From: Casimicrobium huifangae
GTDB lineage: Bacteria > Pseudomonadota > Gammaproteobacteria > Burkholderiales > Casimicrobiaceae
Assembly: GCF_009746125.1 (NCBI RefSeq)
Contig: NZ_CP041352.1
Location: 833,847-897,846, forward strand
Length of the DNA: 64,000 nucleotides
Direction of reading: 5' to 3'
Of this stretch, positions 1,585-61,710 are shown piece by piece. Under the pieces are notes generated by a model. It was not told where the DNA came from. It saw nothing but the letters and a program-made list of their open reading frames with translations, and made no database searches. A program made the position numbers and the translations under genes. Position 1 is the first letter of the stretch; each line of letters starts with the position of its first letter.

Positions 1585-1681
1585 CTGCTTGCGGGCTAGA
1601 AACGAAAAAACGGCGAAGTCGACTTCACCGTTTTTGTTTGCCTAGCCCCAATCCAATAAGGCTTTCAGCAAAAAGTCGCTG
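1585..1681. repeat. Palindromic intergenic repeat, copy 1
   Basis: This copy holds the best-formed core: GGCGAAGTCGACTTCACC flanked by A and T runs. The right side reads CCAATAAGGCTTTCAGC, the inverse of the left arm CAGCTTTTCGCTGAAA seen in the copies at 19039 and 61601. Related copies lie at 12118, 33159, 38500 and 46213. It fills the gap between convergent wrbA and sodC. Confidence 0.75.
1605..1635 (+). terminator. Bidirectional intrinsic terminator
   Basis: A near-perfect hairpin of AAAAACGGCGAAGTC against GACTTCACCGTTTTT, with an A run on one side and a T run on the other. It can therefore end transcription of wrbA (plus) and sodC (minus). It is formed by the core of the repeat at 1585-1681. 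Confidence 0.8.
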
Positions 1682-1721
1682 CCGTCAACTATCGACGGCA
1701 GACAGGTCGGGACCGGTCCCG

Positions 1722-2279
1722 CTATTTGTCCGGCGCCAGTGTGATCAGCCCGCAGCTTACGCGCGGGCCGGCGTTGCCGAGCGGCTGCGACACGTAGTCA
1801 TCCGGATCGCGGTGGGTGATCAGCGGCATGCCGACGATGCTGTATTTGCCGGGCGTCAGCGTAATGGTGTCCACCATCTGTTTGGTGGTGCCAGTGCCGT
1901 TGGCGTCGGTTTTCAGATTGAACATCGCGCCGGCGTGGCGGATCATCTGCCCCGGATGATTGTGTGGGTGTGCGTCGGGATTGAAGTGGGCGCCGGTCTT
2001 GGTGCCGTCACCGGAACAGTCCGGCACTGCATGCACGTGAAAGCCATGTTCTGAATTGGGTTTCAGGCCCTTGATCTCGGCCTCGACCATCACCTTGCTG
2101 GCGCCGAGCTGGCTGAAGCGGACCACGCCGACCGGATTCAGATTCGCCGGGCCGGCTGCCGTGGTGGCTTTCATTTCAGCAACGGCGACGATCGGCTTCT
2201 CGCCGCCCATCATGCTCTGGCAACCGGCTGCAACGGCCGCAGCGGTAACGGCAGCAGCGACGAGGGAAATACGTTTCAT
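1722..2279 (-). CDS. sodC: Cu/Zn superoxide dismutase lipoprotein, zinc ligand Asp replaced
   Basis: A 185-residue protein with a lipoprotein signal (AVAAGC, Cys20), so it is probably anchored at the periplasmic face. SodC converts superoxide to peroxide. Copper ligands are present: H81 and H83 in GFHVHAVPDCS, bridging H98 in GAHFNP, and H156. The C-terminal signature GNAGPRVSCGLI is intact, with the disulfide pair C88 and C176. Zinc-side histidines H106 and H115 are present, but the usual HAGD motif reads HAGA, so the aspartate zinc ligand is Ala118. The ribosome site GAAGGAG supports the start. It shares its strand with the metalloprotease gene upstream. Confidence 0.9.
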   Translation of the reverse strand: MKRISLVAAAVTAAAVAAGCQSMMGGEKPIVAVAEMKATTAAGPANLNPVGVVRFSQLGASKVMVEAEIKGLKPNSEHGFHVHAVPDCSGDGTKTGAHFNPDAHPHNHPGQMIRHAGAMFNLKTDANGTGTTKQMVDTITLTPGKYSIVGMPLITHRDPDDYVSQPLGNAGPRVSCGLITLAPDK

Positions 2280-2383
2280 GCACTCACTCCTTCAAGACTT
2301 CAAGATTGCGGCAGACTCCGGCCGCCACTCGCGCGGATTGTGTCACGCCGCGCCCTGATTTCGCTATCCGAACAAGCCCGTTC

Positions 2384-4480
2384 TTACGGGACGAAGGCAC
2401 TGCCGCAATTGGCATTCAGCCACTCGCGAATGTTGTTGTTGACGCCGGCCGGCGTGTTCCACTGGCCGCGCGCCGCGCCGGGCGGCACCGCGCCTTGCGT
2501 CACCGCGCTGCCAGTTAGCCCAAGCATGGCCCGCAGGATCACCAGGCCGTCGCCGGTCGCGTTACTGCTGGTGGCGCCGGTTGCCGGTACCGCCGCGAAC
2601 GCACTGCGGGCGTAAAGGGTCGCCGCGGTGGTGTTCTGCGCGCAGACACCTGCCGGTGTGCCGAAGTTGGCTGCGCTGACACCGAGGAACCGGCGTAGCG
2701 TCGCCACGCCGTCGGTCGAGGCGTCGATGAGGCCGTTGCCGTCAATATCGAGGTTGCAGTTCGGGAAGGCACTGTCGAGCTGGGCGCTCAGGTTGCTGGT
2801 GATGCCGCCCACCGTCAATGCAGCCGGCACCACGACCGCAGGGATACGGTAGCCTGCCGCGCGTGGATGTATCGAGCCGGTCCACCCGGCCGGGCCGCTG
2901 CAGCGGTAGCTGCCGGTGGATGCCGTGCAAAGAATGTCGGGGCTTGACGTACAGAACGACAGATTGGCCACGCCGGTCGCGCCCTGGGTGATGGTGCCGC
3001 TGATCGGCGCATCACGCCAGCGCGAAACCTTCACGCGAACGTAGTTGAGGCCGCGCGCCGAATAGGCGCAGGTCGGGTTGTTCGCGCAGGACGCCGCCGC
3101 CGGCCCGCAGCCTGCCGCCGAGCCGATACAGGCTTCCTCGGCGGTGTCGGGTGCGACCCCGGCGATGGTGCCCGACGATACGTTCAAGCCGCACGACAGG
3201 CCATCGCTGGCAATGCGGATGCCGGGATGGGAATAACAGTTGAGGTTGCGGTTAACGTAGGCGATCGACATGATGTCGCCATGGGTGGGCATGTAGCAAT
3301 AGCCGGTCGGGCAGCCCGGTGCGTTGTAGCCGTAACCGAAGCCATAGCCGTAAGAGACCGGCGGCACCGTTGCATTGGGCGCGTCCACCGAGAGACTGCC
3401 GCGATCATGGTTCATGCCCATGACGTGTCCGATTTCATGCGAGAAGGCGGTGTCCGGGCAGGTCCCGTTGCCAGCCTCCAGATCGAGTCCGTCGCTGAAC
3501 ACGGCATAAGCCCAGCCCTCGTACGGCGCCATGTCGAAGCCCACGGTGCCGTTGCGGTTGGCCATGCCGCAGGCGGCGTGCGCATTGCGCCGGAACGGAC
3601 GGATCAGCACCACGATATCGGCCTGGCTGGAATCGCGCAGCGGCGCGACTGCGGTCAGTTCGGGCGGCGTCACCACCACGCGTCCAAAGGCCGGGATCGA
3701 CGGCGTGATGTGATCAAGCGCCTGCCCGTCGGTAGTTGTCTCGGAATAGCTGCTGCGATAGGTTGCTACCAGCCGCAGCGTGATCGCTACCTCGCTGTTC
3801 AGGTAGCCGGTGTTGGCCTGCGCCACCAGGTTGTTGATGCGCGCGAGCACGCCGGCCACACTGCCGTATCGGGTCACCATGCCCTCGGTGTACACCACCA
3901 GCAGGTCGATCACGCTTTGTGGCGCTGGCGTAGCGAACACCACCGTGGCCTCATCACTGAGCTTGTGCTGCTCCGCAAGTGCTTGCGGCAACAACGGGGG
4001 CTCCACGAAATCATGCGCCGTCGGCGGCACCAGTGTATGCCCTGCTGCGCGCTGGTCGAGCAGGCGAACGCTGCCGCGCTTGCTGTCGCCACTCAGGATG
4101 TAAGTGGTGTCGGATGCGTACAGCGTACCGTACACGTAGCCCTGATGCTCGGTGACAAAGACGTTGTGCTCGGCGTCGCCGTCACGATGCATGCCCACCC
4201 AGGTGCGCGCGCCGGATGCGCCGTCGAGAACGCGCAGGCCCGTCAGCGCGAGCTCGCGCGTATCGGACACGGCAACGTTGCGTGTTTCGCCATGTGCGTG
4301 AGAGAACAGTGCGTCGAGGTTGATGCTGACATCACGCTCACCCGGTGCAACCAGCGCGCCCTTCGCGGCGCCGTTGGCTGTGCCTGCCAGTGTGAGCCAG
4401 CTACCCGTCGCGGCGCTGGCAGCGCCAGCGGCCACCGCAAGCAGCGCGGCAGCAAGCCATGTGCGAAAGAAAACCCTCAT
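2384..4480 (-). CDS. Secreted reprolysin-like zinc metalloprotease with dockerin-like C-terminus
   Basis: A 698-residue protein with a signal peptide (residues 1-24, ending ASAA). The metzincin motif HEIGHVMGMNHD at 348-359 gives zinc ligands H348, H352 and H358 and catalytic E349, as in M12-type proteases. The catalytic domain spans about 190-420 and is followed by a Cys-rich stretch. Near 575-600 the sequence DIDGNGLIDASTDG resembles a dockerin or EF-hand calcium loop, and a weaker second unit follows at about 645 (ATGDGLVILR). The substrate is unknown; degradation of exported protein is the natural role. About 105 bp separate it from sodC downstream. Confidence 0.85.
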   Translation of the reverse strand: MRVFFRTWLAAALLAVAAGAASAATGSWLTLAGTANGAAKGALVAPGERDVSINLDALFSHAHGETRNVAVSDTRELALTGLRVLDGASGARTWVGMHRDGDAEHNVFVTEHQGYVYGTLYASDTTYILSGDSKRGSVRLLDQRAAGHTLVPPTAHDFVEPPLLPQALAEQHKLSDEATVVFATPAPQSVIDLLVVYTEGMVTRYGSVAGVLARINNLVAQANTGYLNSEVAITLRLVATYRSSYSETTTDGQALDHITPSIPAFGRVVVTPPELTAVAPLRDSSQADIVVLIRPFRRNAHAACGMANRNGTVGFDMAPYEGWAYAVFSDGLDLEAGNGTCPDTAFSHEIGHVMGMNHDRGSLSVDAPNATVPPVSYGYGFGYGYNAPGCPTGYCYMPTHGDIMSIAYVNRNLNCYSHPGIRIASDGLSCGLNVSSGTIAGVAPDTAEEACIGSAAGCGPAAASCANNPTCAYSARGLNYVRVKVSRWRDAPISGTITQGATGVANLSFCTSSPDILCTASTGSYRCSGPAGWTGSIHPRAAGYRIPAVVVPAALTVGGITSNLSAQLDSAFPNCNLDIDGNGLIDASTDGVATLRRFLGVSAANFGTPAGVCAQNTTAATLYARSAFAAVPATGATSSNATGDGLVILRAMLGLTGSAVTQGAVPPGAARGQWNTPAGVNNNIREWLNANCGSAFVP

Positions 4481-4569
4481 GAACCCCTCGTCACCCTCTG
4501 CCCGTCGTGGCGGGCCAAGCGCAGATTATCCCGCCGCAACAGGACTTTGGCGCCGTGTCACACTCAGTC

Positions 4570-6440: not shown

Positions 6441-6533
6441 CCCGCAAGCTGAATCTTCAAATCGGCGATCTGTGAATTTTACTGCACGTCCGATCGGAGC
6501 ACGCTTCTCTGCTTCATGCAAAATGCGCGGCCC

Positions 6534-7769: not shown

Positions 7770-7829
7770 CGGTGCTCACAGCAAGCAGGACAAGCCGCAA
7801 GTGTGCCCGACATCGCATGCGGCGGAACT

Positions 7830-12059: not shown

Positions 12060-12117
12060 GGACGAGGAGGATAGCCGCGTCGAAGTCAGGCGTACGGCTT
12101 TTGTGTGAAACAACCGC

Positions 12118-12211
12118 CGAATAAGGGCTCAGGGTCCAAAAATGGAAAAACTCGACTTCCGCCAGAAAAGGCGGTTAGCCCGCGTTGAATAAGGGATCCC
12201 GCGAAAAGCCG
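12118..12211. repeat. Palindromic intergenic repeat, copy 2 (minus orientation)
   Basis: Read on the minus strand it aligns closely with the copy at 19039: CGGCTTTTCGCGGGATCC, then TTATTCAA, then GGGCTAA, then GGCGGAAGTCGA, then TGAGCCCTTATTC. It fills the gap between gshB and the DUF4124 gene. Confidence 0.7.
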
Positions 12212-13048
12212 CTACTTCCTGACCGGCGCTGGGCTGGTTGCGGCGGCTGACTTGCTGGCTGCCGCCGAGGCTGCCGTTGCCGCCGCCAGCTTGGCGTTCT
12301 CGGCATCGATCAGATTGGCCAGCCGGATGCGTTCGGCGGCGTAGAGCGTTGCCAGATCGGCACGGTCGCGGCGCTTGCGGGTGAGCAGTTCGGTGACGCG
12401 CGGCAGCTCGGACTTCGCCTCCAGCAGCAACGCGTTGGCTGACTTGGGGGCAGCGGGCTTCGCCGGGGCCGGGGGCGGCGCTTTGGCCGCGCCGGGAGCC
12501 GGCGGCGTGCCCGGCGCTGCCGCGGGTGCTGCGATTGGGGTCGCCGGTGCACTGGCAGGCGAAGCCAATTTGGCGATCTCTTGCGGCGTGGCTTGCTGGC
12601 CGGCGACGATTTTGGCGAGGATCGCTTCGCGTTCGGTCAGGTTGCGGATCTCGGTTTCCAGATTGCCCAGCGCCCGGTCGCGAACGCGATCAAAATCTTT
12701 CAGGTCGGCGTAGGTGGTCAGCAGCGCTTTGTCCTTGCGCTCCTGCTCCAGGCGGGCCTCGCGGGCCTTGGCCTCGTCGGCAACGCGCTGCGCAGCGAGC
12801 CGCTTTTCCTCGATCGTCGCGGCGCGCTCGGTCTCGCGCTTGAGCGTGCCGTCGGCGCGCAGCTCCTTGCGGGCGCGGTCGTTTGCTGCCGGCGGGATGG
12901 TGTCGCTGTATTGCACCTTGCCGTTTTCATCGACCCACTTGTAGAGCTGGGCCTCGCACGTTCCCGCCGCCAGCAATGCGCAGGCCGCAGCGAGCGGCCA
13001 CCAACGCGTAACCAGCGCCTGAAGCGGCGAGCTAGGCGAGCACTCCAT
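12212..13048 (-). CDS. DUF4124 domain protein, exported, coiled-coil
   Basis: A 278-residue protein. A hydrophobic signal ([19 protein letters not shown], residues 16-34) is followed directly by the DUF4124 motif [18 protein letters not shown]. The middle is charged and helical (many Glu, Arg, Lys and Ala; likely coiled coil), then a Pro/Ala-rich linker and a second helical region. Function is unknown; the DUF4124 motif is common in exported betaproteobacterial proteins. The ATG overlaps the 3' end of pyrE by 17 bases, so the two are probably co-transcribed. Confidence 0.75.
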
Positions 13049-13706
13049 ACTGAGCACGATAGGCTTCAATCTTGTCCTTGAACTGGCTGAGGCCGGCGTC
13101 GCTGCCCACCAGCTGCAGCACATCTGGCAAGGCAGCGATGGCGATCACGGGGATGCCGACTGTTGTTTCAACCTCCTGTACTGCAGAGAGTGTGCCAGTG
13201 CCACGCTCCATGCGGTCGAGCATGATCAGCACGCCCGCCGGTTCGGCGCCCGCCGCGCGAATGATGGCGACTGACTCGCGCACGCTGGTGCCGGCGGTGA
13301 TTACGTCGTCCACAATCAGCACCCGCCCCTTGAGCGGCGCGCCGACGATCAAGCCGCCTTCGCCGTGGTCCTTGGCCTCTTTGCGGTTGAACGAATACGG
13401 CAAATTGTGACCTTTTTCGGCAAGTCCGATGGCCAGTGCCGATACCAGCGGAATCCCCTTGTACGCCGGGCCGAAGGTCATGTCGAAGGCCACGCCCGAC
13501 GCCAGCGCGGCATCGGCGTAGTAGCGGCCAAGCCGGTGCAATGACTCGCCGGTATTGAACAAACCGCTGTTGAAAAAGTACGGCGACAGGCGGCCGGATT
13601 TGGTCTTGAATTCACCAAAGCGGAGCACGTCGCAGGCAAGTGCGAAGCGGAGGAAGTCTTGGCGGAAGGCGTCGGGCGAGCGGGAGTCGGGCGTGGTTGC
13701 GGTCAT
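13032..13706 (-). CDS. pyrE: Orotate phosphoribosyltransferase
   Basis: A 224-residue enzyme that makes OMP from orotate and PRPP in pyrimidine synthesis. The PRPP-binding motif is [17 protein letters not shown], and GPAYKGIPL and [13 protein letters not shown] are the other family signatures. The start [14 protein letters not shown] has a GAAAGGAAAG ribosome site; the longer upstream reading is not needed. It is divergent from exonuclease III. Confidence 0.96.
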
Positions 13707-14595: not shown

Positions 14596-14790
14596 CGCCC
14601 GCGAGGGCGTCTTCCTCGGCGCCGCAGAGGATCAAGCGCGTACGCCACGCGAAGCACAAATGTCCGTTCGTGGTGAGCTTGTCGAACCATGAACGCAGTT
14701 TGTCCCCTCGCCCTTGAGGGGAGAGGGCTAGGGAGAGGGTGACGGTGAAATGAAGTTTGCTCTTTGCGACGAGCTGCTCATGCCGCAGGG
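14596..14790. other. Intergenic stretch with common dispersed repeats
   Basis: No gene is seen here. It contains GTTCGTGGTGAGCTTGTC at about 14665-14690, inverse of a copy at about 20310-20336, followed by an imperfect G-rich palindrome around 14703-14740 (CCCTCGCCC with GAGGGGAGAGGG). Both motifs look like dispersed intergenic repeats. Confidence 0.5.
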
Positions 14791-15028
14791 CAGTCACTTT
14801 CTTTGCTTCGCCAAAGAAAGTAACCAAAGAAAGGCGACCCCAGGCGATTCGCTGTTTCCTGCGGTGCTCGCAACGCGCGGGACCCGCACAAATCGCCCGA
14901 GGGCGCGCAAGTCTGCGCGCAGTGGGCTCATGGTGCGGGTCTACGACCGCGCGTTGCTCCGCTCCTCGGGGCGAATCCATGGGGCCCCTGTCGAACCGAA
15001 GCTTGATCGCTTCGCGATGGGGCGGTAA
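14791..15028 (+). repeat. Long inverted repeat, left arm
   Basis: Starts CAGTCACTTTCTTTGCTTCG and ends near GATCGCTTCGCGATGG. It is the inverse of 15621-15862 with high identity over about 240 bases and a few small gaps; shared blocks include GGCGACCCCAGGCGATTCGC and GGGCTCATGGTGCGGGTC. The arms flank the small gene at 15075. Confidence 0.85.
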
Positions 15029-15074
15029 TCTTGACGCGAGTATCCAAATGGAGCTTCTGAGTGCGCAGCAATAA

Positions 15075-15572
15075 ATGTTGAGACAGATTTTTTGGCGATG
15101 GCCCTTGTTGTTTCTCGTCTTGCCGTTACTCGCCGACGCGCAAGGCTTGAGTGTTGCCAAGAAAGAAGCAGAGGCCTTGCTTGATGCGGCGTTGCCATTT
15201 GCTGAAAAGATGTTGCAACAGCACCGCGAATTTTTTCCGTACGGATATGCGATGGACAAAAACGGCAAGACGGTTGCGGTGTCCGGTTATGACTCGCGTG
15301 AACGTCCGCCGTCGTCTGACTTGATTCGGCAGTTGAAAAAAGTCTTCGTTTCCGGCGCAAAGTCGGGTGCGTACAAGGCAACAGCGCTTGTGTATGACGT
15401 AAGAATCAACTTGCCGGGAACGGGCGCCAAGTCTGATGCGATCGCGGTGTCGCTGAATCACCGTGACAACTATTCCGTTGTGGTTTTCTTTCCCTACAAA
15501 TTCGAGAGCGCGAAGCTCGTCGTTGGAGATCCAATTGCAAATCAAGGTGAGGCTGACATATTCCGTCGATAG
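15075..15572 (+). CDS. Small exported protein of unknown function, flanked by inverted repeats
   Basis: A 165-residue protein with a signal peptide (WPLLFLVLPLLADA, cut near residue 23). The mature part has a pattern like HREFFPYGYAMDKNGKTVAV, then ATALVYDVRINLP and DAIAVSLNHRDNYSVVVFFPY, which resembles small bacterial families found near polymorphic toxins, but I cannot name one with confidence. Base composition is less GC-rich than its neighbours. It sits alone between two 240-bp inverted repeats, suggesting it arrived or moves as a unit. Confidence 0.6.
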   Translation: MLRQIFWRWPLLFLVLPLLADAQGLSVAKKEAEALLDAALPFAEKMLQQHREFFPYGYAMDKNGKTVAVSGYDSRERPPSSDLIRQLKKVFVSGAKSGAYKATALVYDVRINLPGTGAKSDAIAVSLNHRDNYSVVVFFPYKFESAKLVVGDPIANQGEADIFRR

Positions 15573-15620
15573 CACCGCACTTTAGTGGCGTAGCCCGGAT
15601 GCTTGCATCCGGGTTCCCGT

Positions 15621-15862
15621 GCTCTATCGCGAAGCGATCAAGTAAGTATCGGTTCCAAGGGGTCCCCATGGATTCGCCCCGAGGAGCGGAGCAACGCGCG
15701 GTCGTAGACCCGCACCATGAGCCCACTGGTTGCGTGCAGCGCAACTTTCGGGCGATTTGTGCGGGTCCCGCGCGTTGCGAGCACCGCAGGGAAACAGCGA
15801 ATCGCCTGGGGTCGCCTTTTCTTTGGTGACTTTCTTTTGGCGAAGCAAAAGAAAGTTACTGC
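15621..15862 (-). repeat. Long inverted repeat, right arm
   Basis: Inverse copy of 14791-15028. It ends GAAAGTTACTG and contains CGAATCGCCTGGGGTCGCC. Short open frames inside it are not genes. Just before it, at 15590-15615, lies an ATCCGGG-type small palindrome also present near 40715. Confidence 0.85.
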
Positions 15863-16057
15863 CACGCGCGGCACGAGCGCGCTGGCGGCAAACCAACCAT
15901 CTCCCCGAAGAACAAGTTTGGCTGGTATCAGCTTGCGGCGGGCAGTGCCCGCCCTACGCACCACGGCCCGTGGTTCGACGCGCCCACCACGAACGGTGAA
16001 ACGGGGCTCCGGGGCCAAGCCCCGGGCGAATTGCCTTCGCCACGGCAAAATTACGCC
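15863..16057. other. Intergenic stretch without recognised gene
   Basis: Between the right repeat arm and the ABC-F gene. It holds GC-rich short palindromes such as GGGGCTCCGGGGCCAAGCCC near 16005, which may terminate leftward or rightward transcripts. No protein-coding signal seen. Confidence 0.4.
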
Positions 16058-19038: not shown

Positions 19039-19132
19039 CAGCTTTTCGCTGAAATCCTTATTTAATAAGGGCTAAAAGCGAAAAATAGGCAAATGTCAAT
19101 ATGCGGCGATTTGCGCGCTGAGCCCATATTCC
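19039..19132. repeat. Palindromic intergenic repeat, copy 3
   Basis: Contains the left arm CAGCTTTTCGCTGAAA, then CCTTATTTAATAAGGGCTA, then AAAGCGAAAAATAGGC, and ends CTGAGCCCATATTCC. It lies between the oxygenase gene and the convergent Gfo/Idh/MocA gene. Confidence 0.75.
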
Positions 19133-19242
19133 ATGGACTACACAGCAAAAAGCTGTATGTCTGTCGTCGCAGCGCTGACGTTGGATGACGAAGCCGTCGT
19201 TCTCGGCGAAAGTCACCCTCAAGCCGGCGCTCTGGAAAACGG

Positions 19243-20299: not shown

Positions 20300-20455
20300 A
20301 GTGACGTTCATGGTTCGACAAGCTCACCACGAACGGAGTGAGTGATGAGCGCAGCGTTTACCCCTGAGCGAAGTCGAAGGGGCACCACCAACGGACAGAG
20401 TGGTGAGTGCCGCGTTTACTCTTGAGCCTGACAAAGGATCACCACGAACGGCGCG
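20300..20455. repeat. Dispersed intergenic repeat segments
   Basis: Contains GTTCGACAAGCTCACCACG near 20308, a degenerate second unit near 20375, and CACCACGAACGG near 20440. The first unit is inverse to the segment near 14670. No gene is present. Confidence 0.5.
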
Positions 20456-32037: not shown

Positions 32038-33153
32038 ATGGGCCTCATGGACTTCATCAAGAAAGAGCTGATCGAGATCATCGAGTGGCAGGATGATTCG
32101 CGCGATACGCTCTCGTATCGCTGGCCGGACGACGACAAGCAGATCAAGAACAACGCGCAACTGATCGTTCGCGAAAGCCAGGTCGCGCAGTTTGTCTACC
32201 TTGGCCAATACGCCGACACGATGGGCCCCGGCAAGCACACGCTGTCAACGCAGAATATTCCGGTACTGTCGACGATCCTCGGCTGGAAATACGGCTTCGA
32301 GACACCGTTCAAGGCCGACGTCTACTACGTCACCACCCGTACCTTTGCTGGCAACAAGTGGGGCACGGCAAACCCGATCATGATGCGCGACGCGGACTTT
32401 GGCGTGGTACGCATGCGCGCGTTCGGTCAGTACGATTTCAAGATCGTCAATCCGCCGCTGTTCCTGAAGGAAGTGGCGGGCACCGACAATCACTTCCGTC
32501 TCGACGAGTTTGCGGACGTGATGCGCTCCAAGATCGTGACGGTGTTCACCGAGGCGATCGCCAATGCCAAGGTGCCAGCGCTTGACGTTGCTGCCCGCTA
32601 CAGCGAGATCGGTAGCGCGTTGTTGCCCGCCATCAATCCGATCACGACGGCGAAATATGGCATTGAGGTCACCTCGTTCAATATCGAGAACGTCTCGCTG
32701 CCACCGGAAGTGGAGCAGGCGATCGACAAGCGCGGCGCCATGACCACGATTGGCGACATGGGGGAATACATCCGCTACAACATGGCCAATGCCGTCGGCG
32801 AGGGCAAGGCAGGCACGATGGGCTTTGGTGCCGAATTCGCGGTAGCGATGGGCGTTGGCCAGCAAATGATCAACCAGCCTGGCGGCACGGTGGGCGCCAA
32901 CCCGAACGCGCCGCGCGGCATGGTGCCGGGCGCGATGGCGGCGCCCGTCGCAGCAGCCGCTGCAGCTGCCGCAGCGGCGCCCGCAGCGGCGCCTGCAATG
33001 GAGCTGATGAATCCGGCGCAAGTGGCGCAGGTGCTCGGCGTGGCCGAGAGCGATGTGCTGGCTGAACTGGATGCCGGCAACCTGAAGGGCCGCAAGATCG
33101 GCACCCAGTGGCGCATCACGAAGGATGCGGTGGATACCTTCCTGAAGGGCTAA
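32038..33153 (+). CDS. SPFH-domain protein with C-terminal excisionase-like HTH (YdjI-like)
   Basis: A 371-residue cytoplasmic protein. Residues 1-270 form an SPFH domain of the virion-core/YdjI type (ELIEIIEWQDDSRDTLSYRW, and FNIENVSLPPEVEQAIDKRG). An Ala-rich linker at about 300-325 leads to a 45-residue helix-turn-helix like the excisionase/MerR type (NPAQVAQVLGVAESDVLAEL, then GRKIGTQWRITKDAVDTFL). A good ribosome site AGGGAGAAA precedes the ATG. The next two genes make up a small membrane-linked module. Confidence 0.85.
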   Translation: MGLMDFIKKELIEIIEWQDDSRDTLSYRWPDDDKQIKNNAQLIVRESQVAQFVYLGQYADTMGPGKHTLSTQNIPVLSTILGWKYGFETPFKADVYYVTTRTFAGNKWGTANPIMMRDADFGVVRMRAFGQYDFKIVNPPLFLKEVAGTDNHFRLDEFADVMRSKIVTVFTEAIANAKVPALDVAARYSEIGSALLPAINPITTAKYGIEVTSFNIENVSLPPEVEQAIDKRGAMTTIGDMGEYIRYNMANAVGEGKAGTMGFGAEFAVAMGVGQQMINQPGGTVGANPNAPRGMVPGAMAAPVAAAAAAAAAAPAAAPAMELMNPAQVAQVLGVAESDVLAELDAGNLKGRKIGTQWRITKDAVDTFLKG

Positions 33154-33158
33154 GCACT

Positions 33159-33280
33159 ATTGGCTTTTGGCTGAAAGAACCATTGAACCAGGGCTGAAGG
33201 CGGGTTTTTCGACGAAGTCGACTTTTCCTGAAATCGGAATTCAGGCCCCGTGAAATGGTCTTTTTGGTGAAAAGTCGCTG
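33159..33280. repeat. Palindromic intergenic repeat, copy 4
   Basis: Contains TTGGCTTTTGGCTGAAAG, then CAGGGCTGAAGGCGGG, the core CGACGAAGTCGACTTTTCC, CAGGCCCCGTG, and the closing arm GTGAAAAGTCGCTG. Arms of both ends are visible, so this copy is near full length (about 120 bases). Confidence 0.75.
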
Positions 33281-38499: not shown

Positions 38500-38592
38500 T
38501 CAACTTTTCAGCGAAAAGCGCAGCTGATATGGGCCTGGAACACAATTCCGCCGGAAGTCGACTTCTCGCCTTTTACGGGCCTGAGCCCAATG
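38500..38592. repeat. Palindromic intergenic repeat, copy 5
   Basis: Contains CAACTTTTCAGCGAAAAGCG, then CAGCTGATATGGGCCTGG, the core GGAAGTCGACTTCTCGCC and the right end GGGCCTGAGCCCAATGCC. It lies between divergent-end coaBC start and the pyk stop. Confidence 0.7.
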
Positions 38593-38617
38593 CCGACGGC
38601 AGTTCAGGAGAAAGCTG

Positions 38618-40060
38618 CTAGCTCCGGTGTTCGCCAACACGCACGACCTTCAGTGCGTTGGTGCCGCCGCTTTTGCCCATTGGCTCGCCGCAGCTCAACA
38701 CGATCAGATCGCCGTCGGCGACCGCAGCGCGCGATTTCAGCGCGTCTTCAGCGGCCTGCAGGGCGCGATCACGGTCGGCGTCGAACGGCACCACGACGGG
38801 GCGCACGCCGCGGTACAGTGCCGCGCGGCGGGCTGCGGCAATTTCCGGTGTCAGCGCGTAGATCGGCACGCCGCTGTCGTGGCGGCTCATCCAGAGCGCC
38901 GTGGAACCCGACTGTGAAAGCGCAGCGATCGCCTTTGCATTCAGGTGAAAGGCGGTGAACAACGATGCCATCGCAATGGCCTGATCGACGCGAACGAACT
39001 GCTGGTTGATGAAGTCTCGGTCCAGCTCGTACACCTGCGAACGTTCGGCCGCGAGCGCGATGGCGGCCATCGCCTTCACGGTTTCCACCGGGTATTTGCC
39101 AGCAGCTGATTCGGCCGACAGCATCACGGCGTCGGTGCCATCGAGCACCGCGTTGGCGACGTCGCTGACCTCGGCGCGGGTGGGCACCGGCGCGGTGATC
39201 ATGCTCTCCATCATCTGGGTTGCGGTGATCACCAGCTTGTTCTTGTCACGGGCGCGCACGATCATGCGCTTCTGCAGCGCCGGCACGGCGGCGTTGCCGA
39301 CCTCGACTGCGAGGTCGCCGCGGGCCACCATGATGCCGTCGCTGACCTCGATGATTTCGTCGAGCGTTTGCGGCACGATTGCCTCGGCACGTTCGATCTT
39401 GGCGATCAGCTTTGCCTTGCCGCCAGCGGCCGCCAGCACCGTGCGCGCGGTCTGCATGTCGGCGGCGCTCTTCGGGAACGATACGGCGAGGTAGTCAACG
39501 TCAATATCTACCGCAGTCTTGATGTCGGCTAGATCCTTGGCCGTCAGTGCCGGGGCCGTTAGGCCGCCGCCGAGCTTGTTGATGCCCTTGTTGTTGGAGA
39601 GTTCGCCACCGTGGATGACCACGGTATGCACGGCATCACCCTCTACCTTCGTCACCGTGAGCTGGATCAGGCCGTCGGCCAGCAGCAGCGTGTCGCCAGC
39701 CCTGACGTCCTGCGGTAATTGCTTGTAGTCGAGGCTGGCACGCTCACTGTTGGACAGCGGTGATTTGTTGTCGAGCGCGGCATCGAGAATGAAGGGCTGG
39801 CCCACCTCGAGATGAGCACGGCCGCCGTCGAACTTGCCGACGCGGATCTTCGGCCCCTGCAGGTCACCCATGATGCCGACCTCGCGTCCGCAGCGCGCTG
39901 CGGCCTCGCGCACACGCTGCGCCCGACCCGAATGGTCTTCCGGCGTGCCGTGCGAGAAATTGAGGCGGAACACATCGGCCCCGGCCTCGATCATCGCGGC
40001 AATGATGTCAACGGTATCGCTCGCAGGCCCGAGCGTGGCAACGATTTTGGTGGCTTTCAT
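38618..40060 (-). CDS. pyk: Pyruvate kinase
   Basis: A 480-residue glycolytic enzyme. Motifs: TKIVATLGPASD at the N-terminus, VFRLNFSHGTPEDH, the metal site IMVARGDLAVEVG, the active-site MIVRARDKNKLVITATQMMESM (split: NKLVITATQMMESM), and a complete C-terminal allosteric domain. The start MKATKIVATLGP is at 40060. Upstream in-frame codons do not fit. Confidence 0.97.
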   Translation of the reverse strand: MKATKIVATLGPASDTVDIIAAMIEAGADVFRLNFSHGTPEDHSGRAQRVREAAARCGREVGIMGDLQGPKIRVGKFDGGRAHLEVGQPFILDAALDNKSPLSNSERASLDYKQLPQDVRAGDTLLLADGLIQLTVTKVEGDAVHTVVIHGGELSNNKGINKLGGGLTAPALTAKDLADIKTAVDIDVDYLAVSFPKSAADMQTARTVLAAAGGKAKLIAKIERAEAIVPQTLDEIIEVSDGIMVARGDLAVEVGNAAVPALQKRMIVRARDKNKLVITATQMMESMITAPVPTRAEVSDVANAVLDGTDAVMLSAESAAGKYPVETVKAMAAIALAAERSQVYELDRDFINQQFVRVDQAIAMASLFTAFHLNAKAIAALSQSGSTALWMSRHDSGVPIYALTPEIAAARRAALYRGVRPVVVPFDADRDRALQAAEDALKSRAAVADGDLIVLSCGEPMGKSGGTNALKVVRVGEHRS

Positions 40061-40137
40061 GCGGACGAGTGTAGTCTCGCCGGATGTCTGTAGTGCGCGG
40101 TAGTGCCACTGACGCGCAGTCGCACCAGCAATCCCGA

Positions 40138-40590
40138 TCAACTCTGGCAGTCTCCGGCACGCACCGCGCGAATCACTTCCTTGCGGTGCTGTTTCTCGCC
40201 GAACTTGGTGCCGATGGTGTCGACTTCGGCGGTGTATTCGGTCGGGCTTACGATAGTGATCACTGTGGTGTTTTCGCCGCGAATGCCGGGCAAACGGCAG
40301 GTGGCGTGAACTTTGTAGCGGTTGTCGCCCACCTTGCTGTCCTCAGTCTTGCACAGCAGATTGGTGATCGAAAGTACCCGCGAGATTTCCTTGCGCGGGC
40401 TGGCGCAATATTCGGTGTTGCGCGTTTCGTACTCAACCGGGTTGAGGTCAAGCTTCTCGATCTTGCGTTCCACCTTCCACAGGCCGGGCTGAAGCTGGTC
40501 GAGCGGAATGGAATCAATCGCGTGCACCGGCAGGCAAGCCGCAGCCATCGGCAGCACGAGCGTCAGAAGGGGGAAATGACGAAGGTTCAT
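40138..40590 (-). CDS. DUF3617 domain protein, exported
   Basis: A 150-residue periplasmic protein with a signal peptide (FPLLTLVLPMAAACLPVHA). The DUF3617 signature PGLWKVERKIEKL starts soon after, and the two Cys in YCASPRK and LLCKTED with later C in ATCRLPG and AGDCQS suggest two disulfides. Function unknown. It shares its strand with pyk but is separated by 77 bases. Confidence 0.75.
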   Translation of the reverse strand: MNLRHFPLLTLVLPMAAACLPVHAIDSIPLDQLQPGLWKVERKIEKLDLNPVEYETRNTEYCASPRKEISRVLSITNLLCKTEDSKVGDNRYKVHATCRLPGIRGENTTVITIVSPTEYTAEVDTIGTKFGEKQHRKEVIRAVRAGDCQS

Positions 40591-46158: not shown

Positions 46159-46508
46159 TTTCAGCTCCAGACTGGCTGCCGATTTGAGGCAGGAATGGGC
46201 CGGCACGGGATGGTCAGCTTTTCGCCGTAGCCCGCATCCAATAAGGGCTGAACGCTAAAAAGAGCGAAGAGTTGACTTTATGGAATTTTAGGCTATAAGC
46301 CCAGCTTGTAAGCCATTCTCGTGGCAAAGCCATATGGCGATTGACTCGATCGCTGGCCGCGCCTCGCGGGCTCGCTGGGCGGCATCCCCCGATCAAATTG
46401 CCCGGAAAATTCTGTCGCTATCTGGCAACAAATCCGGATTTCAGGCAAACTATCGCCTATCTCAATTCAACTCGCCTTGATTTTTTTGATCGATGCGAGT
46501 CATTCTTG
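46159..46508. other. Gap before aroQ
   Basis: Contains repeat copy 6 at 46213-46313. The remaining 195 bases have no gene I can support; the in-frame extension of aroQ here lacks family similarity. Confidence 0.5.
46213..46313. repeat. Palindromic intergenic repeat, copy 6
   Basis: TCAGCTTTTCGCCGTAGCCC, then CCAATAAGGGCTGAACGC, GCGAAGAGTTGACTTTATGG, and GGCTATAAGCCCAGC. Divergent but aligns well with the other copies. Confidence 0.65.
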
Positions 46509-54806: not shown

Positions 54807-54826
54807 AAGCGATGGATAATCACGCC

Positions 54827-55192: not shown

Positions 55193-56604
55193 TGGCCATT
55201 CCGCCCAAACCGCCTGGCCCACGGAAGCCACTGTCGCTGCCGCAGCGACCGCCGCAGGCGCAGCCAGCACCGTTGCCGCAGCCGCCGAAACGGCCGCCGC
55301 CGCCCCAATCGCCGCAACGCCCGCAGTCGCTGCAGCATGCGCCGCGCCCGGCCGGGCCGCGCGCTGGCACGCTGTCGGTCCACGCCAAACCGGTTCCTGA
55401 CCGCGCACAGCGATTCTTCGCGCCGTGCCCACGCGGGCTGGAGCAAGTGCTCGCCGATGAGCTTGCCACGCTTGGCGCTGCGCAGGTGTCACCCACCGAC
55501 GGTGGCGTCGGCTTCAGCGGGCCGTTCACGCTGGGATACCGCGTCTGCCTCTGGAGCCGCATCGCCAGCCGCGTGCTGTGGCAATTGGCCGAGAGCGAGT
55601 ACCGGCACGAGGAAGAGATTTACCGGCTGGCGCGCAATATCGACTGGCCGCACCTGTTCTCGGCACGCGAGACGATCCGTGTGCAGGTGGACGCCATCCG
55701 CTCGCCGCTCACCAGCCTTGAGTTCGTCACGCTGCGCGTGAAGGACGCGATTGTCGACCGCTTCCGCGCCGCGATGGCCTCGCGCCCGTCGGTGAATACC
55801 AGCATGCCCGACATGCGCATCCACGTGTTCCTCACCGCGTACAAGGCCACGGTGTACCTTGACCTCGCAGGTGAGGCGCTGTTCAAGCGCGGCTACCGGC
55901 GTGAGGGCCTGCTGGCTCCGCTGCGTGAGAACCTCGCCGCCGGGATGCTGGCGCTCAAGGGCTGGACGGGGCAGATGCCGCTGTTCGACCCGATGTGCGG
56001 CAGCGGCACCATCCTCACCGAGGCCGCGATGATCGCCATGCACGTCGCGCCCGGCGCCCAGCGCGCCTTCGCCTTCGAAAAGCTGCGTAACTACGACGAA
56101 GCCGCGTTCAAACAAATGCGCGAGGAGGCTGCTCAAGGTGTCACGCCGCTCGCCGCCGGCCTGCTGTTTGGCAATGATCGCAGTGAGGACGCCATCGCCA
56201 CCACGCGCCGCCACCTGCAGAACATCGGCGGCGAAGCCACCGCCGCTGCCGTCACGCTCACCAATGAGGCGATGGAGACGCTGCCCGCGCCCGTCGCCGC
56301 GCTCTCCAGCGGCCTGCTGCTCACCAACCCGCCCTACGGCGAGCGGCTGAACGAGCTCGCCGAGCTGAAGGCGTGGTACCCGGCCGTCGGCGCATGGCTC
56401 AAGCGCACCATGGCAGGCTGGCGCGCCTGCTTCATCACGGCTGACCGCGACTTGCCCAGCGGCATCGGCTTCAAGCCATCCAAACGCACGCCGCTATTCA
56501 ACGGCGCGCTGGATTGCCGGTTGTTTGAGTTTGAGTTGTATGCAGGGACGCGGCGGACGGATCGGGTGGTGGAGGGAGACGTAGAGACGCACCACCGGCG
56601 GTAG
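55192..56604 (+). CDS. RlmL-type 23S rRNA methyltransferase (THUMP)
   Basis: A 470-residue methyltransferase. A Pro/Gln-rich tail (about 1-65) precedes FAPCPRGLEQVLADEL, the start of the ferredoxin-like/THUMP region. The methyltransferase domain has LFDPMCGSGTILTEAAM and the catalytic LLTNPPYGERL. It corresponds to the first (m2G2445-type) half of E. coli RlmL; the RlmK half is missing, as is usual outside gammaproteobacteria. Its 3' end is duplicated at 57076. Confidence 0.9.
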   Translation: MAIPPKPPGPRKPLSLPQRPPQAQPAPLPQPPKRPPPPQSPQRPQSLQHAPRPAGPRAGTLSVHAKPVPDRAQRFFAPCPRGLEQVLADELATLGAAQVSPTDGGVGFSGPFTLGYRVCLWSRIASRVLWQLAESEYRHEEEIYRLARNIDWPHLFSARETIRVQVDAIRSPLTSLEFVTLRVKDAIVDRFRAAMASRPSVNTSMPDMRIHVFLTAYKATVYLDLAGEALFKRGYRREGLLAPLRENLAAGMLALKGWTGQMPLFDPMCGSGTILTEAAMIAMHVAPGAQRAFAFEKLRNYDEAAFKQMREEAAQGVTPLAAGLLFGNDRSEDAIATTRRHLQNIGGEATAAAVTLTNEAMETLPAPVAALSSGLLLTNPPYGERLNELAELKAWYPAVGAWLKRTMAGWRACFITADRDLPSGIGFKPSKRTPLFNGALDCRLFEFELYAGTRRTDRVVEGDVETHHRR

Positions 56605-56691
56605 CGCGCCGATGCGGAGCGGAGGCGCGACGGGATTAGGCGGCGCCGTGCATTCGCGACGAGCGCTTTGCGAACCGCATGACGAGTCTGT

Positions 56692-56982: not shown

Positions 56983-57075
56983 GGCCCAATTTTAAGGGCA
57001 CTTCGACGCTTGCAAACGTTCACTGCGTGTCGGTTCAACGCCTACGCAAGGCGGGCTCCCTGAGGCGCAGTGTCC

Positions 57076-57280
57076 GGCCTTGGGCGCCCGGCTCAAGCGC
57101 ACCATGGAAGGCTGGCGCGCCTGCTTCATCGCCGCAGTCCGCGAGCTGCCCAGCGGCATCTGCTTCAAGCCGTCTAAACGCACACCGCTATTCAACGGTG
57201 CGCTGGATTGCCGGTTGTTTGTGTTTGAGCTGTGCGCGGGGACGCGGTGGACGGATCACGTGGCGCCGGGTGAGATGGCC
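57076..57280 (+). pseudogene. Fragment copy of rlmL-like 3' end
   Basis: About 200 bases here match 56385-56580 at roughly 85 percent by eye. The translated copy reads RLKRTMEGWRACFIAA, then FKPSKRTPLFNGALDCRLF, against RTMAGWRACF and the same later segment in the intact gene. It lacks the catalytic domain and is a remnant. The copy flanks the MNT gene on the other side. Confidence 0.85.
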
Positions 57281-57323
57281 ATGTCGACTGTTCAACGCCA
57301 CTGACGTCCTCTCGATGGAGAGG

Positions 57324-58031: not shown

Positions 58032-58098
58032 TGCGGCGGCTAACGTCAAGATTCTTAGTCAACCTAACGTCCTTAAGCGAGCCCCCTTTGTACGCGTG

Positions 58099-58461: not shown

Positions 58462-58517
58462 GTCATTGTTTCCTCGGTTAGTCGGCGCGCCTGCGATTTT
58501 GTTGCACTCAGGGCTTA

Positions 58518-59686
58518 GGGCAACGCTGAACAAGCCATTGATTTCAATGGCGACGGTGAGTGCGGCGAGTCAAAGTTACGCACGACGAGATTTTTGGGCC
58601 GCAGTGGTCCGATTTCGCTCCAATGAGTGCCGTATCGGCCCCACGGGCGTGCTTTACGCCCACTGCGGGCGCACTCATGCCATCAGGCGCTTGCGCGCCA
58701 GGTAGATGTTGGCCAGCCCCAGCGCCACAAACGAGCGCGTGGCGTTCTTCGCCAGGCCGCGGTAGCGCACCTTGGTGAAACCCCACAGCCGCTTGACCAC
58801 CGCGAACACGTGCTCCACTCGGGCTCGCACCTTGGACTTATTGCGGTTCTTCGCCCGCGCGACTTCGTCTATCTCGCCGCCTCTGCGCATGCGCTGATTG
58901 GTGAAGTCCCGGGCTTTGGGGGCCTTCGACTCGATCAACTCCTTCTGACTGGCATAGGCACTGTCGCCGTACACGCGCTGCTCCGCTCCGTGCAGCAGCT
59001 CAGGCAACGGGTGCTTGTCGTGCACGTTCGCCGCGGTCACCACCGCGCTGTGCGTCAGCCCCGTGCGGCTGTCCACTCCGATGTGCATCTTCATGCCGAA
59101 GTACCACTGCTGGCCCTTCTTCGTCTGGTGCATCTCGGGGTCACGCGCCTTCTCGGCGTTCTTCGTCGAACTCGGTGCGCCGATGATGGTGGCATCCACG
59201 ATCGTGCCCGTGCCTACCTTCAGCCCCTGCTCCTGCAGTAGCCGACCGACCGTGGCGAACAATTGTTCGCCCAGCTTGTGCTGCTCCAGAAGACGGCGGA
59301 ACTTCAACAGCGTGGTGCCATCGGGCACGCGCTCACGGCCAAGGTCAATACCCACGAAGCGGCGCAGTGCCGTGCTGTCCAGCAATGCCTCCTCGCAGGC
59401 CTCGTCCGCAAGGTTGAACCAGTGCTGCACAAAGTACATGCGCAGCATGCGTTCCAGCCCCACCGGCGGGCGACCATTGCCAGGCTTGGGATAGTGCGGC
59501 TCAATGACGGCGCACAGTTCGGACCACGGCACGATCTGCTCCATCGTCGCGAGGAACACGTCGCGCTTGGTTGCGCGCCGGTACTGTTCAAATCCGGCAC
59601 CTTGATCGGCCGCTGCAGCTAGAGTCTGTTGCTTCATACATTCATAACGTCGCTACAGCTCTACGGTGGACTTGTTCAGTGTTGCC
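58518..59686 (-). mobile_element. IS5-family insertion sequence, complete
   Basis: Terminal inverted repeats GGCAACGCTGAACAAG at 58518 and its inverse CTTGTTCAGTGTTGCC ending at 59686 enclose a single transposase gene. The 4-bp target duplication TTAG is present on both sides (58514-58517 and 59687-59690). Length 1169 bases. The intact ends and open frame suggest a recent, possibly active copy. Confidence 0.93.
58675..59637 (-). CDS. IS5-family transposase
   Basis: A 320-residue DDE transposase. GTIVDATIIGAPSSTKN has the first Asp, AEQRVYGDSAYASQKE the second, and RVEHVFAVVKRLWG the Glu region with the Y(2)R(3)E(6)K-like spacing. An N-terminal IS5 region has LERMLRMYFVQHWFNLAD. It is intact and lies wholly within the element. 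Confidence 0.93.
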   Translation of the reverse strand: MKQQTLAAAADQGAGFEQYRRATKRDVFLATMEQIVPWSELCAVIEPHYPKPGNGRPPVGLERMLRMYFVQHWFNLADEACEEALLDSTALRRFVGIDLGRERVPDGTTLLKFRRLLEQHKLGEQLFATVGRLLQEQGLKVGTGTIVDATIIGAPSSTKNAEKARDPEMHQTKKGQQWYFGMKMHIGVDSRTGLTHSAVVTAANVHDKHPLPELLHGAEQRVYGDSAYASQKELIESKAPKARDFTNQRMRRGGEIDEVARAKNRNKSKVRARVEHVFAVVKRLWGFTKVRYRGLAKNATRSFVALGLANIYLARKRLMA

Positions 59687-60063
59687 TTAGCACGCCGTGA
59701 CTGTGTATTTGATGCCGAAGTGATTTGTCTAATAAGCGATGGCGATAACGGCTACCCACAATCAATGGCTTGCAGCAAACTATCCCGCATGCAAAGGTTT
59801 GATTCGATCATCGTCGTTATACCGACCATCTCGGTCAATAACAAGTCTGCATCTAGCGCTACACCGAGCGAAGGGCACCTCGATTCGCGACTTGGTCACG
59901 GCGTGCTCGGGGGTGAGATGGCGCCCTCCACTTTAGGACGCAGCGTCGCGCCACTTCAATAAAATGAGCGCAGATCGACATTTCCACCTGCGACCGCGCA
60001 ACTTTCGCGTCCTTGGATCACCACAAAATCTGACGCGCCCCAGCGCACCACAAGGCACCCATC
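59687..60063. other. Gap to the right of the IS element
   Basis: No gene supported. Open frames here are short and overlap the IS end. GC content appears lower than in the core genes, then rises toward 60000. Confidence 0.5.
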
Positions 60064-60252
60064 ATGGCCGGCTACGTTTCTGAATTCACCCAGTTCATCA
60101 CCGAGCTCAAGGCGGCGAAGCCGCAGCTTGAGGCTGAGCAGCGCAAGGGCCGCGCGATCTGGTGGGACAAGCAGCCGCTGGACGTGAAAGAGCGCAGCGA
60201 GCAGGACGCCGCCCGCGTGCCGCAGAAGCCTTATCCGTACGCGACCAACTAG
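60064..60252 (+). CDS. DUF3460 small protein
   Basis: A 62-residue protein. YVSEFTQFITELKAAKPQLE and GRAIWWDKQPLDVKERSE match the DUF3460 pattern, a family confined largely to Burkholderiales and relatives. Function unknown. Confidence 0.85.
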   Translation: MAGYVSEFTQFITELKAAKPQLEAEQRKGRAIWWDKQPLDVKERSEQDAARVPQKPYPYATN

Positions 60253-60273
60253 GGCGTTAGCAAGCCCCTGACG

Positions 60274-60675
60274 TCAGGGCATTTCCCTGGCGCACTCACC
60301 GCCGGGATGATCGGCGGCGCGCGCCTCGGTCGCCAGCAGGGCGAACGCGACGAAGTGCAGCAACAGGCCGGCGGCAAAAAACACCGCCTTCGCCGCCGCT
60401 GCGCTGACCGCCGGCTCGCCGTCCATCTGGCCGTAGCCGAGCGCCTGCATCACGCCGATAAAGGCGAAGGTGGCGCCGGGCAGCAGCAGCACCGGCCAAG
60501 CCAGCTGCATCGTCTGCGTCAACCGTTCGGCGCAGCCGGTCATGAACAGGATTGCGGCGGCGGGCAGGGCGATCAGCGCCATCCAGCGGCCACTCGCTAC
60601 TGCGGCGAGCACGGCCACCAGCAACCACGCGATCAGCGTCGCGTTGAACAGCCGAACCAGCGTTTGCCTTTGCAT
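60274..60675 (-). CDS. Small membrane protein, unknown
   Basis: A 133-residue protein with four hydrophobic segments (about 12-32, 35-50, 60-82 and 98-120). The start MQRQTLVRLFNATLIAW is chosen; the longer upstream reading overlaps the divergent tcdA gene. No named family recognised. Confidence 0.6.
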   Translation of the reverse strand: MQRQTLVRLFNATLIAWLLVAVLAAVASGRWMALIALPAAAILFMTGCAERLTQTMQLAWPVLLLPGATFAFIGVMQALGYGQMDGEPAVSAAAAKAVFFAAGLLLHFVAFALLATEARAADHPGGECAREMP

Positions 60676-60724
60676 GACTGCCTTTACCAAAACTGCAACT
60701 CTGGCCGATGATACGCTCGCCGCG

Positions 60725-61552
60725 ATGAGCTCCACCGCCACTCCGCCAGCCTCACCCGGCGCCGCCAGTGCCGCCGAATGCGCGGTGGGTGACCCGCTCG
60801 CGGCAAGCGGCGACAGTGATGACCGCCGCTTTGGCGGCATAGCGCGCCTTTACGGCACGGCGGGGTTCGCGCGCATCCGCGCAGCGCATGGCGTGGTGGT
60901 GGGCATTGGCGGCGTGGGCTCGTGGGCGGCGGAGGCGCTGGCGCGCTCCGGCGTGGGGCGGTTGACGCTGATTGATCTGGACGTGGTGGCCGAGTCGAAC
61001 CTGAACCGCCAGGCGCACGCCACGCTCGCCAACCTCGGGCGCAACAAGGTGGATGCGATGCAGGAGCGCGTTGCCAGTTTTGCGCCAGATTGCGCGGTGA
61101 CGCTCGTCGACGATTTTGTGACGCCGGACAACGTGGCGGCGCTGATCCCGGCGGATGCCAGCTTCGTCATCGACGCCATCGACCAGGTGCGCGCCAAGGC
61201 GGCGCTGGTGGCGCATTGCGTGGCGCGCAGGCTGCCGGTGCTGGTGTGCGGCGGTGCTGGCGGCAAGACCGATGCCTCGCGGCTGACCACCAGCGACCTC
61301 GCGCTGACGGCGCACGACGCGCTGCTCTCGAAGCTGCGCGCCACGCTGCGGCGCGAATACGCCTTCCCGCGCGGCGACAAAAAGTTTCGCGTCACCGCGA
61401 TCTACAGCACCGAGCCGCAGGCGGGCGCGCCCGCAGACGGCGCCGCCGGGCTCGCCTGCGCTGGCTACGGCTCCGCGATGCACATGACGGCGAGCATGGG
61501 GCTGCTGGCAGCGGGCGTGGCGTTGACTGCGACGGCAACCAGCGGTACGTGA
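60725..61552 (+). CDS. tcdA: tRNA threonylcarbamoyladenosine dehydratase (TcdA/CsdL)
   Basis: A 275-residue E1-like enzyme that cyclises t6A in tRNA. The nucleotide-binding motif is VVGIGGVGSWAAEALARSG, followed by LTLIDLDVVAESNLNRQ and the catalytic segment DAIDQVRAKAAL. It begins with a Ser/Ala-rich tail of about 35 residues before the family core RFGGIARLYG. Divergent from the small membrane protein. Confidence 0.92.
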   Translation: MSSTATPPASPGAASAAECAVGDPLAASGDSDDRRFGGIARLYGTAGFARIRAAHGVVVGIGGVGSWAAEALARSGVGRLTLIDLDVVAESNLNRQAHATLANLGRNKVDAMQERVASFAPDCAVTLVDDFVTPDNVAALIPADASFVIDAIDQVRAKAALVAHCVARRLPVLVCGGAGGKTDASRLTTSDLALTAHDALLSKLRATLRREYAFPRGDKKFRVTAIYSTEPQAGAPADGAAGLACAGYGSAMHMTASMGLLAAGVALTATATSGT

Positions 61553-61561
61553 CGCCGCTCT

Positions 61562-61592
61562 GCCCGCTCGCGCGACGCTCGGTCGCGCGGGC
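61562..61592 (+). terminator. Hairpin after tcdA, probable terminator
   Basis: GCCC and GCGCGAC pair with GTCGCGC and GGGC. There is no T run, so termination strength is uncertain. Confidence 0.4.
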
Positions 61593-61600
61593 ATATCTGT

Positions 61601-61710
61601 ATCAGCTTTTCGCTGAAAGCCTCATTCGCACAGGGCTCAGCGGCATAAATTGACATTTATCGACTTCTTGCCATATCGGCGTACAAGCCCTTGTTGAATA
61701 ATGGTTTTGA
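61601..61710. repeat. Palindromic intergenic repeat, copy 7
   Basis: ATCAGCTTTTCGCTGAAAGC, then CAGGGCTCAGCGGCATAAAT, GACATTTATCGACTTCTTGC and CAAGCCCTTGTTGAATAATG. It lies between convergent tcdA and the beta-lactamase gene. Confidence 0.75.

Follow-up and report, generated by a model that had tools for sequence, protein, structure and literature searches.

The stretch of Casimicrobium huifangae DNA analyzed here (64,000 bp, contig NZ_CP041352.1, positions 833,847 to 897,846; hereafter, the window) carries seven copies of a dispersed intergenic element, a 117–118 bp dyad of spaced boxes around a central GTCGAC, which recurs several hundred times in the genome and keeps its positions between species of the genus. 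Our best explanation, to which as a whole we give about even odds, is that a dedicated protein complex would bind each element as one composite double-stranded DNA site of ~117–121 bp. The complex would sit symmetrically on the central GTCGAC and, in each half, read the outer CNNCTTTT box, the middle box of 20 bp, and A-tracts that lie ~13 and ~44 bp away from the dyad. Such sites would pass down vertically, and purifying selection would keep them where they are, at about one per 12 kb, mostly close to the 3′ ends of genes and with close neighbors avoided, and their role would most likely be in chromosome architecture, as anchor, loop-base, or topological-domain sites. Judged from sequence features, we are confident in predicting protein-binding sites, while the architectural role is a reading that we put slightly below even. 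Dispersed bacterial palindromic repeats are normally classed as mobile or terminator-like, but the present family fails the mobile tests and behaves as long DNA sites that are fixed, spaced, and selected, and its recognition word varies from one related species to another. If protein-bound, these sites would represent a new means of marking chromosomes in bacteria and offer a natural test case for hundreds of sites co-evolving with one DNA-binding protein; if the architectural reading is right, they would be a far-off relative of matS-like sites.

Copy number and anatomy of the family

A sequence-only profile (R1), run with filters off, matched all seven window copies (E = 4e-22 to 2e-11), after which the next window match reached only E = 1.5. 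These E-values are partly by construction, because six of the 20 copies in the R1 training set came from the window; support independent of this training came from the 16-base outer arm, which at no more than one mismatch had 39 matches in the window's genome (G000; a single contig of 4,465,898 bp) versus 0 for the reversed pattern. A first whole-genome R1 listing gave at least 150 matches on both strands. Sampling 400 kb as 20 stretches at even steps recovered 36 elements (~400 per genome), and a set of 59 coordinate-chosen 20-kb stretches contained 95 (~360 per genome; one more stretch, chosen for its known pair, was kept in the spacing test and excluded from this density estimate). The reversed copy of 61 stretches, used as a decoy, had 0 matches at the threshold, with a best score of 6.7 bits. 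The seven-copy family proposed in the first-pass annotation is thus real, its guess of hundreds of copies per genome agrees with our estimate of 360–400, and the genome-wide profile listing and sampled stretches together support a dispersed, dyad-symmetric, intergenic family. Few half-decayed copies appear to exist in G000, as 464 contiguous kb contained 40 elements and a single further match (8.6 bits), the only one at E between 0.01 and 1.

The unit is nearly fixed in length, with 50 of the 54 full G000 copies having the model's length or being 1 bp shorter. The annotation had described copies of 95–120 bp with a shared layout; the dyad and spaced boxes hold, but the unit is really 117–118 bp and the copies are very diverged. 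Of the 122 elements collected from G000, the pairing, co-variation, and spacer tests excluded 17 whose rows had over 12 gaps, whereas flanks and target duplications were examined in all 122. Across the 105 aligned copies, each half is conserved at the outer box (C4–T8), A15–A16, positions ~21–24, G31–C34, the A/T positions 45–47, and T58–C59 beside the dyad. Conservation of column 1 (C1) at 100% is overstated by local alignment, and 64% of copies have an A at position −2, which suggests that the site is nearer 121 bp. The features of each half are thus the outer box (CNNCTTTT), the middle box, which spans 20 bp and reads CCcATT..A..GGGCt in this species, and A-tracts at dyad distances of ~13 and ~44 bp. 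Measured from the dyad, A/T content peaks at ~4, 13, 31, 36.5, 44.5, and 53.5 bp. The boxes are near-invariant (GGGC 0.91–0.99; TC 0.97–0.98). In mutual information, the strongest links joined neighboring bases, with columns 46–47 and 72–73 being AA or TT as a unit; the switching between AA and TT at columns 46–47 suggests that an A-tract works on whichever strand it lies.

No evidence of a conserved hairpin emerged from the same 105 copies. Pairing across the dyad was 0.528, compared to 0.523 expected for independent halves, and this independence suggests that each half is read as DNA. No co-varying helix was found inside a half within G000 either, and an RNA hairpin or cruciform was ruled out by the lack of co-variation at both levels. 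Hence, the palindromic layout described earlier stands as dyad symmetry, while a conserved full hairpin does not, as the arms show no compensatory change; that same absence, which the annotation had named as grounds for rejecting its family, counts against the hairpin and leaves the family itself untouched.

Conserved positions and lineage-specific middle boxes

We then compared element positions between G000 and other members of the genus. Elements filled 18 of the 20 distinct testable G000 sites in G011, and 19 of 19 in the reverse direction (in the raw count, 20 of 22, two places were counted double; identities were taken over 20 pairs). Between orthologous elements of these two species, boxes were 0.90 identical and spacers 0.38 (better orientation chosen), the latter compared to 0.35 for unrelated copies under the same orientation rule, while four-fold degenerate coding sites were 0.62 identical; these differences indicate that the boxes are held by selection. 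Over 11 species, 26 of 34 tested sites were filled, with ~2.0 expected; in these position tests the expected count was 0 for G008 and G004, whose contigs carried no known element, and some intervals exceeded 1 kb.

Profile R1 was abundant in only seven of 17 genus members (G000, G001, G004, G005, G011, G013, and G015), had fewer matches in G008, and had 0–4 in the other nine, of which we looked at G012, G002, G006, and G010 (leaving G003, G007, G009, G014, and G016). Loss or decay of the family in these four was considered and rejected, as the weak matches proved, most clearly in G012, to be sites of unchanged size whose middle box differs, most of them at the matching positions. In G012 the variant is firmly established: the sites have the usual ends (CAGCTTTT), usual centre (AAGTCGACTT), and the same length around a middle word ATCGACCG..CGGTCGTT, and they numbered nine in 111 kb with 0 in decoys (10 versus 0 on repeated iteration), filling six of seven testable orthologous places where 0.34 were expected. 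In the R1-rich G013, an extended word of its own (CCGCATCCACAACGGGCTTG) had seven matches in 115 kb, one of them half-length, and the listed copies were alike in boxes and not in spacers. The case is fair for G002 and weaker for G006 and G010, where GGGCGA-, GGGGC-, or GGCTT-type words with a changed centre are less certain. The model for these three species, iterated from weak seeds, gave 27 matches versus one self-fit decoy for the three together; in single-species reruns against the decoy (G002, 12 versus 1; G006, 0 versus 1; G010, 2 versus 2), only G002 was clearly ahead. Six of seven tested places were filled in these species (~0.7 expected), and their case rests mainly on position.

The middle word is thus GGGC for both G011 and the window's species; nine G012 sites have GGTCG, 6–7 G013 sites an extended CATCCACAACGGGCTTG, and G006 a GGGCGA-type word. 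A tentative and rather doubtful extension of our reading is a genus-wide chromosomal address code, in which several hundred 117-bp sites would keep position, length, outer ends, and usually the centre, while the 20-bp middle word is rewritten in step in each lineage. If true, it would point to a DNA-binding complex with fast-changing specificity that drags its sites along in place, or to a rewriting process, perhaps for chromosome organization or self-recognition.

The boxes also bear on the possibility that the elements are hairpins of the repetitive extragenic palindrome (REP) or bacterial interspersed mosaic element (BIME) type, mobilized by a RAYT (Y1) transposase that recognizes single-stranded stems. 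An inner inverted repeat is present per half in several lineages (CGACCG..CGGTCG in G012; CGCCCAATT..AATTGGGCG in G006), which implies that its two sides changed together between lineages. Such two-sided change appears only between lineage consensuses, however: within G000 we found no stem with compensatory changes, the two sides of the inner repeat do not co-vary, and the near-invariant GGGC has a CCC partner that is kept in 57–71% of copies. REPs are short hairpins in mosaic arrays whose copies are alike. The enterobacterial BIME-2 and REP elements resemble the present family in intergenic position, many copies, and a proposed topological role, but the element here is a single 117-bp dyad without stem co-variation or shared spacers, and its positions are kept over species. 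We therefore consider a RAYT-mobilized origin very unlikely.

Another possibility is a mobile family, either miniature inverted-repeat transposable elements (MITEs) or two fused transposon ends, that spread anciently, acquired its spacing from transposition immunity, and was later kept in place. Inverted outer ends, hundreds of intergenic copies, and a middle box homogeneous within a species (G013) would all suit such an origin, and immunity would account for the avoidance of near neighbors. The present copies, however, do not behave as mobile. Target-site duplications of 2–9 bp were not above expectation among the 122 elements (2 bp, 0.156 versus 0.139; 3 bp, 0.016 versus 0.017; none longer). 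Whole-length similarity gave no indication that copies descend from one another, as spacers were at chance, with a best identity between copies of 0.62 compared to 0.56–0.63 in five column-shuffled sets, and no pair of copies shared a spacer; the G013 copies behave likewise. Nor was an autonomous partner with the same ends evident, as no two of the 39 near-consensus outer arms lay 0.5–3 kb apart, a search in which diverged ends would be missed. The Mu-type transposase C-domain occurred in three of 12 genus genomes and was absent from G000, no other transposase search having been made. Conservation of both positions and boxes across species adds to this, and we judge a mobile origin unlikely. 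The first-pass suggestion that a transposase maintains the family as MITEs or as REP/BIME repeats is accordingly not borne out: there is no target duplication, shared spacer, or arm compensation, and the copies occupy orthologous positions with near-saturated spacers and, in G000, are more evenly distributed than a random choice of gaps predicts. ERIC, RIME, and other MITE-like repeats are intergenic imperfect palindromes of ~100–130 bp. The present family is similar in length, imperfect palindromy, and intergenic position, but differs in having no target duplication or visible copying and in its site orthology and spacing avoidance.

As for spread beyond the genus, R1 had no match outside it among 64 family genomes (seven genera) or among 399 order genomes (158 genera), under strict filters and with the best 57 or nine candidates per genome scored. 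A strict pattern run against a collection of 84,980 species, from which records near the window may be left out, found 10 stretches in four metagenome-assembled contig sets titled Betaproteobacteria, Burkholderiales, or Proteobacteria. Restriction to the genus is not proven, since R1 also misses variants inside it. We found no account of the family in literature on palindromic intergenic repeats, gyrase and BIME domains, even dyad sites, and target immunity, with most subscription papers lying outside the search. None of the known kinds that could be tested fits it.

Genomic placement and candidate functions

Gene context was assessed with hexamer-based gene calls, allowing 20 bp before an element was scored as inside a gene, and with elements and gaps of at least 130 bp counted separately. 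None of 104 elements lay inside a called gene. The 103 elements with both neighbors occupied 28 convergent, 60 tandem, and 15 divergent gaps, compared to 52, 258, and 110 available gaps, respectively, and the nearest gene 3′ end was a median of 22.5 bp away (88 elements that have one). This proximity, together with the strong folding of some copies such as element 1 of the window (without a shuffled control), would fit bidirectional terminators or structured RNA in 3′ untranslated regions. Against such a role, the elements show no compensatory changes, their T-tracts lie at the outer 5′ edge rather than after the stem, 15 sites are in divergent gaps, and a density of about one site per 12 kb seems too low for elements marking the ends of operons. 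Rfam gave no match at the elements: 0 matches in the window at gathering scores, and across four loci (12268 bases, E up to 1) five matches below the gathering score, none on an element. We consider a terminator or RNA role most improbable.

Elements are also evenly spaced in G000. Counts per 20 kb were under-dispersed (variance/mean 0.43 versus 0.89 for random gap choice; P = 0.00025), five of 47 consecutive spacings were below 5 kb where 29 were expected, and in the 464-kb stretch the mean spacing was 11.8 kb, with a coefficient of variation (CV) of 0.61 versus 0.98 (P = 0.00025). Contig C22 of G011 agrees with even spacing (12 elements, CV 0.47, P = 0.005). Overall, even spacing is strong in the window's species and moderate in G011. 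One site per ~12 kb near gene ends, avoiding its neighbors, suggests architecture as the simplest reason we can see. Non-random distribution and positional conservation, the criterion for matS-like architecture sites, were both found, with spacing not significant on a second G011 contig (C79). The matS/MatP, Noc, and parS sites are chromosome-wide, fixed organizing sites of ~13–16 bp that are fewer or clustered and have known proteins. The present sites, for which binding is predicted, are alike in being chromosome-wide and fixed, but are ~117 bp long and number ~360 copies.

Strong DNA gyrase sites, analogous to BIME-2, offer another topological explanation, in which DNA would wrap at the element, the centre would be cut, and supercoils would be absorbed at gene ends. 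BIME-2 elements are gyrase sites, the E. coli gyrase motif is symmetric, ~130 bp long, and made of a central cleavage part with two flanks phased in G+C, and of the proteins that cover DNA of such length gyrase is the best known (PMC6379681). The element is likewise symmetric, is 117–121 bp long with phased A-tracts, and lies near gene 3′ ends, most frequently, for the gaps available, in convergent ones. However, the E. coli motif is degenerate with a 10.75-bp period (PMC6379681), whereas the element has specific near-invariant boxes and probably another period: its strongest AT period is ~9.5 bp over the whole element, although the left flank alone gives 7.5 and 10–10.5 bp, which makes the period argument weak. 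Lineage-specific middle boxes would also be unexplained by gyrase. Of the 12 genus members, 10 had GyrA open frames of ordinary length (860–890 aa) without an extra domain, G005 had a fragment of 503 aa, and none was found in G013; an extra GyrA domain was thus considered and not seen among genus open frames. Taken together, we regard gyrase sites as an unlikely explanation.

Several observations weigh against our preferred reading of the elements as fixed binding sites of one complex. Eight of the 34 site tests were empty, and G001 has an element at a place where G000 has none. Orthologous spacers (0.38) look, if anything, more diverged than four-fold sites (0.62), which simple drift does not account for. 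On contig C79 of G011 (29 elements), even spacing was not significant (CV 0.76, P = 0.076), seven spacings were below 5 kb where 9.3 were expected, and three weak matches scored 9–11 bits; one pair of elements there has centres 248 bp apart, closer than any G000 pair seen. Fifteen sites lie in divergent gaps, and nothing striking was apparent in the genes beside them from first residues alone, no family search having been made. An ends-and-centre template gave no signal above decoys in three relatives (G006, 5 versus 4; G002, 0 versus 1; G010, 0 versus 2), where either the ends and centre have changed too or the sites are decaying, and a middle-box switch at many sites of one lineage is hard to obtain by site-by-site selection. 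No candidate binding protein emerged from four families sought as co-lost partners, a search whose premise of loss was itself wrong in the examined species; ScpA was present in 12 of 12 genus genomes, KfrA_N in three, and MksE-type DUF4194 in two. Finally, five models found no element in 40 kb of one other genus.

The seven window elements and neighboring repeats

Six of the window elements are 117–118 bp long, and element 1 is without one outer end. By open reading frame coordinates, elements 2–5 lie 0–7 bp from a stop codon and the other three 44–56 bp from the nearest. Element 1 (1590–1677, minus strand; R1 match 1592–1676, E = 2e-11, model positions 3–89 of 118) is located between a flavodoxin/FMN-reductase-type gene (887–1540, plus strand) and a Cu/Zn superoxide dismutase gene (1722–2279, minus strand); in G012 an element is present in the matching interval, but this interval is 1.5 kb wide. 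One copy had been taken in the annotation for the wrbA terminator; the gene beside it codes for a protein of the flavodoxin/FMN-reductase type. Element 2 (12095–12211, minus strand; match 12095–12210, E = 1.5e-18) adjoins the stop codon of a DUF4124 gene (12212–13123, minus strand), lies upstream of a glutathione synthetase gene, and has its site filled in G011. Element 3 (19039–19155, plus strand; match 19039–19155, E = 6.5e-22) lies in the gap where genes for a 2OG-Fe(II) oxygenase and a GFO/IDH/MocA oxidoreductase converge, and its site is filled in G011, G012, and G013. Element 4 (33161–33277, plus strand; match 33163–33276, E = 9e-19) begins 7 bp past the stop codon of a Band_7/HTH_17 gene (32038–33153); this site is filled in G011, G012, G015, G002, and G006 and empty in G013, G010, G001, and G008. 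The product of the gene directly upstream is a Band_7/SPFH protein with a C-terminal HTH_17 match.

Element 5 (38501–38617, plus strand; match 38501–38617, E = 3.6e-18) adjoins the stop codon of a pyruvate kinase gene (38618–40141, minus strand) and lies upstream of a DFP/flavoprotein gene, with its site filled in G011, G012, G013, and G002 and empty in G004. Element 6 (46215–46332, plus strand; match 46215–46330, E = 6e-19) has a TlpA/redoxin-like gene on one side and a class II dehydroquinase gene on the other, and its site is filled in G011, G012, G013, G002, G006, G010, G015, G001, and G005 and empty in G008. Element 7 (61603–61720, plus strand; match 61603–61720, E = 4e-22) lies between a ThiF-family gene and a beta-lactamase-fold gene (61778–62701, PF13354), convergent by the calls used, and its site is filled in G011 and empty in G012 and G015.

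Other repeats were also observed in the window. Nested inverted repeats at 14830–15819 surround a core of 640–930 bp; their arms measure 85 nt (93% complementary), 46 nt, and 30 nt, and the structure may be a small mobile element. Two perfectly matching 33-nt segments form an inverted pair (14663–14695 and 20305–20337) that, with a third partial copy at 15971–15996, represents a second dispersed repeat family. In addition, a direct repeat of 211 bp, 85% identical, is present at 56369–56579 and 57063–57273 (694 bp from start to start).

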